Origin: Enterobacter sp. JUb54
GTDB lineage: Bacteria; Pseudomonadota; Gammaproteobacteria; Enterobacterales; Enterobacteriaceae
Length of the DNA stretch: 64,000 bases
NCBI RefSeq assembly: GCF_014298075.1
Contig: NZ_CP060418.1
Location: 2,046,001-2,110,000 of the forward strand
Reading direction: 5' to 3'
Position numbers and translations under genes: made by a program. The notes beneath the pieces were generated by a model, which did no database searches, was not told the DNA's origin, and saw only the letters and a list, made by a program, of their open reading frames with translations. The number at the start of each line of letters is the position of its first letter. Position 1 is the first letter of the stretch. Positions 39,286-58,562 of the stretch are shown here, in pieces.

Positions 39286-39414
39286 TATACCCAAAATAAT
39301 TCGAGTTGCTTGTAGGCGGCAAAGCCGTAAATCCCCAGGAGCTTACTCAGGTAAGTGACTGGGGTGAACGGGTGCGGCCAACACCCAGGCAACTTGAAAG
39401 ATGAAGGTTATATA
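39286..39414 (+). repeat. ERIC element
   Basis: About 129 bases containing the ERIC core CCCCAGGAGCTTACTCAGG and AAGTGACTGGGGTGAACG, with imperfect inverted ends (ATACCC...GGTTAT). It sits 78 bases upstream of the hpxW promoter, where NtrC enhancers might otherwise be expected. Confidence 0.9.
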
Positions 39415-54939: not shown

Positions 54940-55155
54940 CCGACGTTACCGCCCCTGCTCCCCCGCTGCCTGATGACACCGCAGAATGTGCGCCAGGCAG
55001 CGCCCGACCTGCGTATCAACCCACGTAAAATCAACGCCCTGCAAAAACATTCCATCTATTCATGATTAACATAAAAATTATTCATTTCATTTCTAATTCT
55101 GTTACCATCATATTTGTATGACAAATTAACCCTCACTACACAGGCCGGTGTCATC

Positions 55156-55500
55156 ATGATGATAAGTAGAGCACAAGAGATGCAGGTTCAGGCTCAGCGC
55201 CTGCAGGAACAGGGATTATTACGGCGCGCGCTGGCGTTGTGGGCCGACATGGCGCGATGCGATGACCACGAGGTCGCCCGCCAGGCCAGGCAAAAGCAGC
55301 AGGAGATCGTCGCCTTATTGCAGCGGAAAAAAGACCAGCAAGCGGCCTCGCGCTATAACTGCCGGGCTCATGTTGCGGCCGACCGGGAATTGATCATTGC
55401 CTATTTACGCAATGGCATGAAACCGCGGGAGATTGAGGCACTGACTCAGCGTTCCAGCGCCTTTATTTACCACTGCAAAAAGCTGCTGCCCGAAGAATAA
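55156..55500 (+). CDS. PerC-family transcriptional regulator-like protein
   Basis: About 114 residues. The N-terminal AQRLQEQGLLRRALALWADMAR segment (roughly residues 9-30) is the PerC-family hallmark (A-x-x-L-E-x-x-G-L-W/Y-R-R-A), and the C-terminal LIIAYLRNGMKPREIEALTQRSS could form a DNA-binding helical unit. PerC-like regulators are commonly found on prophages, plasmids and virulence loci. The start is uncertain: ATG 55156 or 55159; the frame is open from a TTG at 55114. Base composition is less GC-rich than the hpx genes to the left, which suggests it was acquired. Confidence 0.65.
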   Translation: MMISRAQEMQVQAQRLQEQGLLRRALALWADMARCDDHEVARQARQKQQEIVALLQRKKDQQAASRYNCRAHVAADRELIIAYLRNGMKPREIEALTQRSSAFIYHCKKLLPEE

Positions 55501-55612: not shown

Positions 55613-55737
55613 ACCCTAAATAATTCAGGTTGCATAAAGGCGGCAAAGCCGTGAGTCCCCAGGAGCTTACTGAAGTAAGTGACTGGGGTGAGCGGGTGTA
55701 GCCAACGCATATGCAGCTTGAAGTATGACGGGTATAT
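55613..55737 (+). repeat. ERIC element
   Basis: About 125 bases with the full ERIC core (GTCCCCAGGAGCTTAC, AAGTGACTGGGGTGAGCG) and inverted ends (CCCTAAATAATTCAGGTTGC ... GCTTGAAGTATGACGGGTAT). It marks the left edge of the DarT operon segment. Confidence 0.93.
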
Positions 55738-55747
55738 CCGAGTATTT

Positions 55748-55776
55748 GCCAGCCAGGAATTGGCTGGCTTTTTTTT
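55748..55776 (+). terminator. Rho-independent terminator, plus strand
   Basis: Stem GCCAGCCA-GGAAT-TGGCTGGC followed by TTTTTTTT. It stops rightward transcripts (from the PerC-like gene) before they oppose the leftward toxin operon, whose last stop is 16 bases away. Confidence 0.85.
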
Positions 55777-55791
55777 GGTTCATCGCGCAGC

Positions 55792-56112
55792 TCACCTGCG
55801 GGGCAGTTTATCATTCAGCAGCGCTTCGATTCTGGCCCGGTTCTCTTCGAGGAGGGCTTTATAATCAATGCGGCTTTTGGGGTCCATTTTCGCCAGGGTC
55901 GCATCCAGTTCCTGCTGACGGCGAATGCTCTCCTGCACCCCTTTCATGGCCGCTTCCATCGCAATCAGCTCGGACGACAGTTCTCGTTCCAGCATCGAGC
56001 GATACAGAAACTCCCGGGCGATGACCCCAAGGGTATTGTTAGCCTGATTGACCGCGTTGTGCGTCTGCTTAAGTGATTCGGCCACGGCGGCCAGAATTTT
56101 ATTTTCACTCAT
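55792..56112 (-). CDS. Small helical protein, last gene of the DarT/NADAR operon (unknown function)
   Basis: A 106-residue, probably all-helical protein (MSENKILAAVAESL, AVNQANNTLGVIAREFLYRS, SELIAMEAAMKGVQESI, then a charged C-terminal helix ending NDKLPRR). It could form a coiled coil. No family recognised. The ATG at 56112 overlaps the stop of the preceding 81-residue gene by 8 bases, so the two are surely coupled. Confidence 0.7.
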   Translation of the reverse strand: MSENKILAAVAESLKQTHNAVNQANNTLGVIAREFLYRSMLERELSSELIAMEAAMKGVQESIRRQQELDATLAKMDPKSRIDYKALLEENRARIEALLNDKLPRR

Positions 56113-56350
56113 TGGCGGCATCTCCTTTCACCACTAACGCCAGGTTTTCCGCCAGGCTGCGGTTGAACATCTCGCGCTGCGCCACGGTCATGACATCCAG
56201 CTGTTTTTTCACCGCCGCCATGCGTTCAAAGTAGTCCTGCATCACCTCGTCACGGATCACCCGTTTGCGTTCATCGGGGATGTCGGCAAAGGTATCCGTC
56301 GCGGTCGGTGCCGGCAGGTTGCTGTCGCCGGCGGGTAGTCGCCTTACCAT
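56105..56350 (-). CDS. Small helical protein in the DarT/NADAR operon (unknown function)
   Basis: An 81-residue protein (starts MVRRLPAGDSNLPAP, then two predicted helices IPDERKRVIRDEVMQDYFERM and VMTVAQREMFNRSLAENLAL, the first given in part as a span of residues 24-44). No family recognised. GGGAGAG lies 5 bases before ATG 56350, and the NADAR stop is 14 bases upstream. A longer open frame (to 56494) overlaps the NADAR gene and is not needed. Confidence 0.7.
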   Translation of the reverse strand: MVRRLPAGDSNLPAPTATDTFADIPDERKRVIRDEVMQDYFERMAAVKKQLDVMTVAQREMFNRSLAENLALVVKGDAANE

Positions 56351-56364
56351 AATCTCTCCCGGTC

Positions 56365-57078
56365 TTAGAAAAGACGCATATTGCGCAGATCGCCGTCGCT
56401 GGTGTTGTAGATCGTGAACTGTTCGAGCAGTTCGATAAACGCATCGCGCGCCGGGATCGTGGTGGCCAACATCTTGCGTTGACGCAGCGCACACCAGAGC
56501 GCGACGGAATAGGCCTGGCAGTTCACCGACTTCTCGGGATTAAATTCGATATCGGTAAAAGCCGTGTATTCCAGCACCTGTTCTTTGCAGGGGGAATGTT
56601 GTAGCGCGTTGAGATACAGCCAGTCGTAAAAGGCGGTTTTCGGCTCTAACGGCCAGATAATAGCCTCGCGCGCTTCATTTGGCTGAAATGAAAAGTGGTC
56701 CAGCCGGCCCGATGTTTTTAGCACTTCCGCGCGCTTGGCCTCTTTCGGCGACAGGCGCATCAGCTCGCGAAACGGCCCGTTATCGGTAAACACTTTTGAT
56801 GACTGGAACAGCGATTCGACGCTGATAAACTGCCCGCCGTTGCTTTGGACACCCATGTTAAAGGCGCTGAGCTGCACGCCCAGCGTCTCTGGCGATTTGC
56901 TGGAGACCTCAAGGATTCTGGCCTCCGGGTGGTCCACGCGATAGCCTTCATGCAGTGCGGCGATGGATTTTTGTTTTTGGCTGACCGCAAGGCCTGGCGA
57001 CCAGTTGAAATCCACATTGACGATCTCCACCAGAGCCGCCCCTGTTGAGGTCGGGATAAATACGGGGCGCACGGCCAT
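56365..57078 (-). CDS. NADAR-domain protein, DarT1-associated antitoxin type
   Basis: A 237-residue protein that fits the NADAR antitoxin family linked to DarT1: N-terminal MAVRPVFIPTSTGAALVEIV, FNWSPGLAVSQKQKSIAALH near 25-44, VSSKSPETLGVQLSAFN near 58-74, SVESLFQSSKVF (86-97), KTAFYDWLYLNAL (147-159), and AFTDIEFNPEKSVNCQA (173-189). NADAR domains hydrolyse ADP-ribose from guanosine in DNA, so it should reverse the toxin's modification. It begins 8 bases after the DarT-like gene. Operon order toxin then antitoxin. Confidence 0.8.
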   Translation of the reverse strand: MAVRPVFIPTSTGAALVEIVNVDFNWSPGLAVSQKQKSIAALHEGYRVDHPEARILEVSSKSPETLGVQLSAFNMGVQSNGGQFISVESLFQSSKVFTDNGPFRELMRLSPKEAKRAEVLKTSGRLDHFSFQPNEAREAIIWPLEPKTAFYDWLYLNALQHSPCKEQVLEYTAFTDIEFNPEKSVNCQAYSVALWCALRQRKMLATTIPARDAFIELLEQFTIYNTSDGDLRNMRLF

Positions 57079-57086
57079 AAAGTCAC

Positions 57087-58139
57087 CTAAAAAGCAAAAT
57101 GGGAAGGGTCAACCACGATCTTCACCGGACAATCGCGTAACCATGAGGGAACATTCTCCGCAGAGTAGAAAATAACCTCGCTAATAAACCACACCGGGAT
57201 CGCCCCACAATACAAAATTTCCGCCTGAATATCATAGGGCCGATCGCCAGAATCTTCATTAGTGTTGCTGCTAAACATCGCCTGAAAGGCCTGATGTTTC
57301 TGACGCTGCTCCACGCTTATCGACCTCACCCCGCTTGAAGCCGCATTACTGTGGCAAAAAACGGTTTGGTTAAGCAATGTCTGATGATCGAAAGAGGGTT
57401 GGGTTGGTCCGCTAATTAACTCTTTTTTGATTTTCAGGATAACCCAGTCATGATCCCGCAGCGCCTGGGAATATTTGTAGAGCATTTTTTTATTCACCTG
57501 ACCTAACGACAGGGAAATAGAATTGCGCATCCCTTCCAGCCGTAATTCGTCGTTATAATGAAAACTATTTTGCCCTTCATCAAGCTGCTGTCGGGTCATT
57601 ATTCCTGACTGAAATATATTTTTCAGATTCGTCAGATGACTAAAGTGATAAAGCGCGGCAATATTCCGCCGTTTCACCCCGCTGAAATCAATCGCCCTCG
57701 CCCAGTTAAACGCCTGAATCGCATAAAATGGTTTATTCGCCACCTGCTGCATAAATTCATTATGCAGATCCGAGGTATAGGCTGGCGCCAGATGGGTATC
57801 GCCGGTTATTGCATAGCGCGTGAGCATATATTCTTTAAAGCCGTTGATATGCATAATCATATTCAACGCGTCGGTCATCGTAATACAGGGGGCGGCATGA
57901 TTAACGCCGCTGATTAACGGGCGTGACGACTGCGGTTCCCGGGGGCGATTATCAAACAGTGACGGCGGCGCGACCGGCGGTATGACGCGTTCAAGCTGGC
58001 GACTATGGGCTTTTCTCTTTTCAACATCAACGATCGGTTCTGCCGTCCGGCTACCTGATTTAGTAGCTGGCGGTTCTTTTTTCTTGATTAAATTACCGAT
58101 AAACGCGAGGACTAAAAAAATGCCAATTACAGTCCACAT
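57087..58139 (-). CDS. Membrane-anchored DarT-like DNA ADP-ribosyltransferase toxin
   Basis: A 350-residue protein. Residues 3-18 (TVIGIFLVLAFIGNLI) form one membrane helix followed by a basic stop-transfer KKK and a low-complexity linker to about residue 80. A helical part, roughly 86-155, is unassigned. Residues 158-325 look like a DarT/DUF4433 domain: LYHFSHLTNLKNIFQSGI (163-180), LRLEGMRNSISLSL (199-212), NAA (265-267), and the catalytic-glutamate motif DIQAEILYCGAIP with Glu307. DarT enzymes attach ADP-ribose to DNA bases. AT-rich relative to neighbours. An anchored form is unusual for the family as I know it. Confidence 0.75.
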   Translation of the reverse strand: MWTVIGIFLVLAFIGNLIKKKEPPATKSGSRTAEPIVDVEKRKAHSRQLERVIPPVAPPSLFDNRPREPQSSRPLISGVNHAAPCITMTDALNMIMHINGFKEYMLTRYAITGDTHLAPAYTSDLHNEFMQQVANKPFYAIQAFNWARAIDFSGVKRRNIAALYHFSHLTNLKNIFQSGIMTRQQLDEGQNSFHYNDELRLEGMRNSISLSLGQVNKKMLYKYSQALRDHDWVILKIKKELISGPTQPSFDHQTLLNQTVFCHSNAASSGVRSISVEQRQKHQAFQAMFSSNTNEDSGDRPYDIQAEILYCGAIPVWFISEVIFYSAENVPSWLRDCPVKIVVDPSHFAF

Positions 58140-58145
58140 ATAAAC

Positions 58146-58158
58146 CTCTACAGTAGAG
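58146..58158. promoter_or_regulatory. Palindrome overlapping the DarT-like gene's ribosome site
   Basis: CTCTAC-A-GTAGAG, whose GAGG (minus strand) is also the likely Shine-Dalgarno for the start at 58139. It could be an operator or a small RNA hairpin that limits toxin translation. Confidence 0.4.
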
Positions 58159-58247
58159 CCTGTTCCATTAGACTATTTATTGTGTGTCATAGCATCACGC
58201 CCCTCAGTTATGAGGGCAAATGAGTATTGTCTTATTGGTTTTGTTGT

Positions 58248-58331
58248 TATACCCGTCATACTTCAAGTTGCCTGGGTGTTGGCTACTCCCGTTTCCCCCG
58301 GTCACTTATCTGACGAATTATTTAGGGTATA
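58248..58331 (-). repeat. Internally deleted ERIC element, reverse orientation
   Basis: Both ERIC ends are present (ATACCCGTCATACTTCAAG ... CGAATTATTTAGGGTAT) but about 45 bases of the centre, including the CCCCAGGAGCTTAC core, are missing. It points opposite to the copy at 55613, and the two frame the toxin operon. Confidence 0.85.
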
Positions 58332-58562
58332 TTCAGCAGTCCGGACGGACTGGGCGGCGAATGAATGGCCGGTTCCTCACGATAATCTATCCCCTCAGGG
58401 AACTCAAGCGGTGGCGCCTGTCACAGACGCCCTGCCACAGGATGAGAATCGCGCTTTTTAATTCATAAATAGCGCCTTTCGGCGCTATTGCGACATAAAA
58501 CAATATCAATCATTTACCCGATGAGCATCGGCAGAATAATTAACCCAAGAAAAATCCTAACG
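58332..58562. other. Intergenic, no gene
   Basis: 231 bases with a hairpin ATAGCGCC-TTTC-GGCGCTAT at 58469-58488 just beyond the iron transporter stop; no T tract follows on either strand. Nothing else recognised. Short frames across 58180-58468 run through the ERIC remnant. Confidence 0.5.

Follow-up and report, generated by a model that had tools for sequence, protein, structure and literature searches.

We analyzed a 64,000-nucleotide stretch of the Enterobacter sp. JUb54 genome (hereafter the window; G000:C1:2046001-2110000, within a single-contig chromosome of 5.3 Mb) and focused on a candidate variant of the DarTG1 toxin–antitoxin system at positions 55792-58139. This region comprises four open reading frames, all on the minus strand and with verified reading frames, namely a DarT toxin gene (darT, gene 1), a NADAR antitoxin gene (gene 2), and two small genes (genes 3 and 4; Table 1). 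The original prediction, made from the sequence alone, had described this four-gene layout with a gap of 8 nt between darT and the NADAR gene, and all four frames are indeed present. Genes 2 and 3 are separated by 14 nt, and genes 3 and 4 overlap by 8 nt, a start codon conserved among relatives giving gene 4 the coordinates of Table 1 rather than a start at 56121. At 46.9%, the GC content of darT is lower than that of the window (59.4%).

The content and order of these genes are conserved. A scan of one genome per species across 84,980 species, based on two short peptide patterns only, yielded four further loci, in Raoultella planticola, R. ornithinolytica, Enterobacter sp. 10-1, and Cedecea colo. 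The gene-order count covers these and the window, outside of which lie P0022 and P0025-P0034, i.e., the homologues of DarT from Leclercia, Yersinia, and others. All four loci display the order darT, NADAR, gene 3, gene 4, with darT and NADAR next to each other in the same orientation, as in the window, and the overlaps are kept in 5/5 loci including the window. The proposal that the two extra genes, for which sensor, adaptor, or modulator roles had been suggested as possibilities, belong with the toxin–antitoxin pair was thus supported by this survey of gene order, the small genes accompanying this type of DarT in each further locus. For R. planticola, Enterobacter sp. 10-1, and Cedecea, respectively, identity to the window was 71%, 65%, and 51% for DarT, 83%, 80%, and 68% for NADAR, 51%, 53%, and 38% for gene 3, and 66%, 59%, and 45% for gene 4. 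Among 20 genomes of the genus, DarT was detected in four, gene 3 in the same four, and gene 4 in those and as a remnant in a fifth (G309). Across 222 family genomes, genes 3 and 4 were each found once, in the window's own genome, which was also the only one among 384 with the full-length DarT form. A DNA similarity search of E. coli complete genomes returned no match to the operon, and no DarT of the window type was found in the viral_contigs or phage collections.

Table 1 Features of the four-gene operon and its upstream region (window coordinates).
Feature	Position	Strand	Description	Basis
darT (gene 1)	57087-58139	minus	350 codons, DarT1-type toxin by sequence	Pfam DarT, PDB 8baq
NADAR antitoxin (DarG1, gene 2)	56365-57078	minus	237 codons	PF22397, 8bat
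Gene 3	56105-56350	minus	81 codons, no known family	third in 5/5 loci including the window
Gene 4	55792-56112	minus	106 codons, predicted long helix, no known family	fourth in 5/5 loci including the window
Predicted membrane helix, then KKK	58077-58139	minus	darT codons 1-21	hydropathy; helix 2-19 in model
Proline-rich linker	57888-58085	minus	darT codons 19-84	17% proline; model pLDDT ~30
Extra helical region	57675-57887	minus	darT codons 85-155	four helices in model; absent from C7 DarT1
ADP-ribosyltransferase domain	57090-57674	minus	darT codons 156-350	C7 DarT1 residues matched
Seven-A run	57485-57491	minus	darT codons 217-219, beside catalytic M219	
Upstream intergenic region	58140-58562	minus	AATAAGAyAA-like stretch common to five loci (alignment)	presumed promoter region

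Sequence comparisons confirmed the assignment of the C-terminal domain of gene 1 to the DarT1-type ADP-ribosyltransferases, in line with the DarT-like motifs originally noted in its last ~170 residues. The Pfam DarT family matched residues 164-330 (E 3.9e-15), a PDB sequence search aligned residues 155-331 with E. coli C7 DarT1 (8baq, E 1.4e-22), and PADLOC returned a DarT match (E 1e-07); the NCBIfam DarT equivalog threshold was missed (21 vs 150 bits). The AlphaFold2 prediction for gene 1, built from 21 sequences, is weak (mean predicted local distance difference test, pLDDT, of 59.5), and its best PDB match by Foldseek is still DarT1 8baq (E 8e-12, template modelling score 0.63 by target length), which agrees with the fold expected for this gene. 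In the alignment with 8baq, whose chain numbering is that of the corresponding paper plus one, residues R183, N196, D197, R200, S211, M219, N265, and E307 are identical to C7 DarT1. According to the excerpted text of PMC11543638, C7 DarT1 is inactivated by alanine at E152, N104, M71, R52, or D54. These map to E307, N265, M219, R200, and E202 of the window protein, i.e., four identical residues and one aspartate-to-glutamate change, with glutamate also found at this position in P0013 and P0014 and aspartate in other relatives. N265 and S211 are DarT1 states, the corresponding positions of DarT2 being occupied by histidine and tyrosine, from which we infer that the toxin would mark guanines in single-stranded DNA.

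Gene 2 was likewise confirmed, by sequence, as a DarT1-associated NADAR antitoxin: it matched the Pfam NADAR-DarT1 family PF22397 with an E-value of 3.6e-80 (cut-off 27 bits) and the Geobacter lovleyi NADAR structure 8bat with an E-value of 1e-61 in the PDB sequence search, consistent with the NADAR motifs reported earlier, and no macrodomain was matched in it by Pfam. It carries E88, K95, and K115 at the C7 NADAR numbers and D176 for the catalytic aspartate, the latter equated with D171 by D-x-E spacing and not by an alignment of C7 NADAR itself. Overall, these similarities support the DarT1-NADAR identity of the pair proposed in the original prediction.

Upstream of this domain, the window DarT is ~155 residues longer at its N terminus than C7 DarT1 (208-residue chain). 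The extension begins with a hydrophobic segment (Kyte-Doolittle mean 2.31 over 17 residues) ending in KKK, predicted to be a membrane helix from hydropathy and lysines. Under the positive-inside rule, lysines just past a helix point to the cytoplasmic side, so DarT is predicted to be an inner-membrane-tethered toxin whose active domain faces the cytoplasm. A proline-rich linker follows, and then the region of codons 85-155, with many invariant residues among relatives, which ends where the 8baq match begins (residue 155). These three parts, absent from the original prediction, are no less of a difference from characterized DarT1 than the small genes. A hydrophobic N-terminal peptide with lysines after it was found in 24/25 database DarT homologues, the exception (P0018) starting downstream of the peptide; P0023 carries it from residue 80 onwards. 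Among 12 other chromosomal DarT loci, maximal hydropathy was ≤1.53 (up to 20 residues into the match; L045 has an internal stop), and strongly hydrophobic N termini were seen in 2/14 plasmid DarT frames (13 loci), from Vibrio parahaemolyticus (2.09) and Rhizobium leguminosarum (2.26). In the former (L022 3692-4582), the hydrophobic DarT start is followed by a PVE repeat, and in both the former and the latter (L098 1910-3073) NADAR comes after DarT. The darT of Acinetobacter soli is interrupted, and a hydrophobic peptide is encoded upstream in a different frame.

The seven-A run in darT is also present in L017 and L018 and is absent from L019 and L020. Two sets of truncated DarT records of 232 residues, P0035 (7 members) and P0036 (35 members), leave the frame exactly at this run, and these frame exits occur in two sequence backgrounds. 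This hints at a slippage hot spot or at on/off switching, although the exits may instead be assembly errors.

Genes 3 and 4 matched no family above any cut-off in Pfam and further profile libraries. Their pairwise ratios of non-synonymous to synonymous substitution rates (dN/dS) were 0.14-0.46 in the 13/20 pairs with unsaturated dS, i.e., 0.21-0.46 for gene 3, the highest range of the four genes, and 0.14-0.26 for gene 4. Both are therefore real genes, given these ratios and the presence of relatives in other species, and both are under purifying selection. Neither contains a hydrophobic segment (hydropathy maxima over 17 residues of 0.29 and 0.41, respectively). The predicted gene 4 structure consists of a 72-residue and a 25-residue helix (pLDDT 91.6, predicted template modelling score 0.46), and none of its 16 matches in the PDB reached E ≤ 0.001; we read gene 3 as probably helical from its sequence. 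A nuclease role for gene 4 was discarded as its PDDEXK_3 match (E 0.13-0.14) fell under the cut-off. Similarly, a phage origin of genes 3 and 4 was set aside because PHROG matches were weak and no relatives were found in the viral_contigs, phage, or plasmid collections. For gene 3 these matches were to phrog_9333 (4/8 members, best E 0.00088), which may be real, and for gene 4 the best E was 0.0015 (3/11 members), the family matched by most members (7/11) having a best E of 0.0041.

To place these genes among other DarT-NADAR loci, we used a control set of 27 (seven from the same family, five from other families of the order, and 15 from plasmids, two of which are nearly identical and both from A. 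soli). Neither the gene 3 nor the gene 4 profile was found in any of the 27 at E ≤ 1, with 524 to ~4,300 bases of sequence available on the shorter side of NADAR (L048 having only 524 bases downstream). By tblastn, DarT was matched at E ≤ 1e-11 in 25/27 controls, the match being weak in L101 (0.002) and DarT being known from annotation only in L100. For genes 3 and 4, the few tblastn matches at E ≤ 1 were short and resembled chance hits. The best of these, a 30-residue gene 4 match in L039 (E 0.009), falls within the reading frame of a 247-codon gene located upstream, had an E-value of 1.2 with the profile, and was attributed to chance. In L040, DarT and NADAR are encoded on opposite strands. 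Within the other families of the order, a repeat protein adjoins the pair as a third gene, in the order NADAR-DarT-TPR in L037 (4736-6541, also with LRR), L038 (4989-5699, TPR below the Pfam cut-off), and L039 (4676-5893), and DarT-NADAR-Sel1 in L041 (5785-6507); these could be sensor-bearing DarTG1 variants. On a Deinococcus plasmid (L091 1198-3738), an 846-residue DarT directly follows an N-6 DNA methylase gene and is in turn followed by NADAR.

Taken together, we interpret the locus, with moderate confidence, as a variant DarTG1 operon probably involved in phage defence, in which DarT is membrane-anchored, NADAR acts as the eraser, and genes 3 and 4 restrain DarT. A single N-terminal helix would anchor DarT in the inner membrane, from which a flexible linker and helical stalk would carry the guanine-specific DNA ADP-ribosyltransferase domain into the cytoplasm, while NADAR would strip ADP-ribose from guanines and so protect the cell. 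The small helical proteins of genes 3 and 4 would bind the stalk or linker and hold the toxin inactive until infection, i.e., they would perform the sequestering half of the antitoxin job, for which a single-domain NADAR is not equipped; once this restraint fails, DarT would mark guanines in exposed single-stranded DNA, including that of phages, and replication would stop. In the excerpt of PMC11543638, DarG2 is described as both erasing the mark and binding DarT through its own DarT-binding domain. Binding and restraint of the enlarged DarT by genes 3 and 4 is our best guess, by analogy, because DarG2 combines these two tasks whereas NADAR only erases, and because the additional parts of the toxin and the additional genes co-occur in 5/5 loci including the window. 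DarTG1 is described, in the excerpted literature, as protecting E. coli from phage, and by this analogy phage defence is the most likely role here. By extension, although we regard this as less likely than not, the locus may represent a class of toxin–antitoxin defence systems in which a DNA-marking enzyme tethered to the inner membrane stands at the point of phage DNA entry and is kept latent by a dedicated helical pair, erasure falling to NADAR, and sequestration and sensing to genes 3 and 4.

Several observations weigh against this interpretation. Computation establishes gene content, conserved order, coding constraint, family membership, and active-site residues; the membrane anchor, topology, and helical folds are predictions, and binding, latency, trigger, and phage defence are inferences. 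The five loci span two genera only, three of the four new ones belonging to the window's genus. E. coli C7 DarTG1 is a functional toxin–antitoxin pair without genes 3 and 4 (PMC11543638, in excerpt), neither of which matched a known regulator, and hhalign related gene 4 neither to gene 3 (2.7% probability) nor to DarT (0.2%). In the V. parahaemolyticus and R. leguminosarum plasmid loci, DarT starts with a hydrophobic segment although genes 3 and 4 are missing, so that an anchor does not require these genes. In addition, E202 stands at the position of C7 D54, an aspartate whose alanine mutant is inactive, and the surroundings in the window, as judged from reading frames, look metabolic and unlike a defence island.

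In the main rival explanation, genes 3 and 4 would instead act as activators or sensors that sit with the membrane DarT and turn the toxin on, rather than restrain it, upon detecting a phage component or a change in the membrane. We regard this as possible but rather unlikely: the same co-conservation with DarT speaks for it, gene 3 is the fastest-changing of the four genes, as a phage-facing part might be, and the TPR, TPR and LRR, or Sel1 third genes of other DarT-NADAR operons have a sensor-like fold, but neither small protein displays a sensor domain or hydrophobic segment. The two genes might also be a small module of their own, carried along with an ordinary DarT1-NADAR pair without functional link, as the autonomy of the C7 pair and the lack of detected similarity to known regulators would allow; however, this is improbable since overlaps and order are kept in 5/5 loci at two chromosomal sites, the two genes were not found intact apart from DarT in the 20 genus or 222 family genomes, and they are absent from the 27 loci with other DarT forms. 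Finally, a decaying or weak toxin with little activity left and kept for other reasons, to which E202, the many truncated DarT records (P0036 and P0035), and the lone gene 4 remnant of G309 would point, appears more improbable still, as darT is intact in the window with a dN/dS of 0.14-0.16 against three same-genus relatives, none of the other mapped catalytic residues is missing, and aspartate to glutamate is a conservative change.

Turning to the surroundings of the operon, those of R. planticola, R. ornithinolytica, and Enterobacter sp. 10-1 occupy the same site as in the window, with an ABC-transporter ATPase gene on one side and a ferredoxin/oxygenase gene pair on the other, whereas neither neighbor was found at the usual identity in Cedecea, whose site therefore differs. 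We compared 11 operon-free sites of genus genomes, five more genomes without a strong ABC gene match being left out. Six (G754, G758, G767, G369, G756, and G755) contain the ABC gene together with the close ferredoxin gene (66-76% identity), the two matches lying 17-35 bp apart in the last five; in G754, 213 bp and a shared hairpin separate the ABC gene from a relative of the 55114-55500 gene described below. Two (G001 and G242) had a distant ferredoxin match only (37-38%), and two (G763 and G153) the ABC gene only. At this same site, G309 retains a 45-residue gene 4 remnant (L080 1210-1344; G309:C2:107509-107643) with no other operon part detected, which is the trace of a deletion.

The operon is flanked by 61-nt inverted repeats at about 55676-55736 and 58248-58308 (84% complementary), with a further match to the repeat pattern at 39349-39370. 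We take these repeats to be ERIC-type, and they were set aside on that basis as mobility ends; nor were they seen upstream of the other four loci. A hairpin at 55748-55768 was ruled out as the operon terminator, its T run being on the plus strand. A convergent 128-codon gene at 55114-55500, which presumably resembles PerC-type regulators, has relatives in L017, L018, and G754, where they occupy the same site, none found in L019 or L020, and no Pfam family at E ≤ 0.01. The Cedecea four-gene cassette (L020) and the two-gene DarT-NADAR loci L047 and L048, from two other genera, lie near similar kinase genes, which we assume to be thiamine-type, and perhaps share an insertion site.

What silences DarT toxins and releases them is termed elusive in the part of PMC9967889 covered, and an apparently membrane-fixed DarT1 with two co-conserved small partners makes this question testable. 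If correct, our reading would place a DNA-modifying toxin at the point of phage DNA entry. Under the broader and less likely reading of a whole class of such systems, the hydrophobic N termini of the Vibrio and Rhizobium plasmid DarTs would mean that membrane tethering is a general feature of DNA ADP-ribosylation that has been overlooked. NADAR-domain proteins among defence systems have diverse extra domains according to the excerpt of PMC13092281, the supplementary figures of which may already include a description of this arrangement; none of the literature matches listed (titles and abstract starts, with subscription journals mostly uncovered) mentioned a membrane-anchored DarT1 or genes like genes 3 and 4.

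Compared to known systems, the predicted layout is reminiscent of human PARP16, a transmembrane helix with a cytoplasmic transferase domain (PMC10789625, in excerpt), although this is an analogy of layout without sequence comparison, and PARP16 is not a DNA-marking toxin. The V. parahaemolyticus and R. leguminosarum plasmid systems share a hydrophobic N terminus, DarT, and NADAR with the window, but neither gene 3 nor gene 4 was found there, and their linkers are unlike that of the window. DarTG2 (DarT2 with the DarG macrodomain) similarly pairs a DNA ADP-ribosylating toxin with an erasing antitoxin, yet the window has NADAR in place of the macrodomain and the DarT1-state N265 and S211. The closest resemblance in gene order (toxin then NADAR), DarT1-type catalytic residues, and DarT1-associated NADAR is to E. 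coli C7 DarTG1, from which the window differs by the ~155 extra N-terminal residues with their predicted membrane segment and by E202 in place of Asp54. Usual DarTG1 consists of two genes with a soluble toxin of ~208 residues, whereas the window encodes a toxin of 350 residues with a predicted membrane segment alongside two further genes, which makes this operon a variant of DarTG1.

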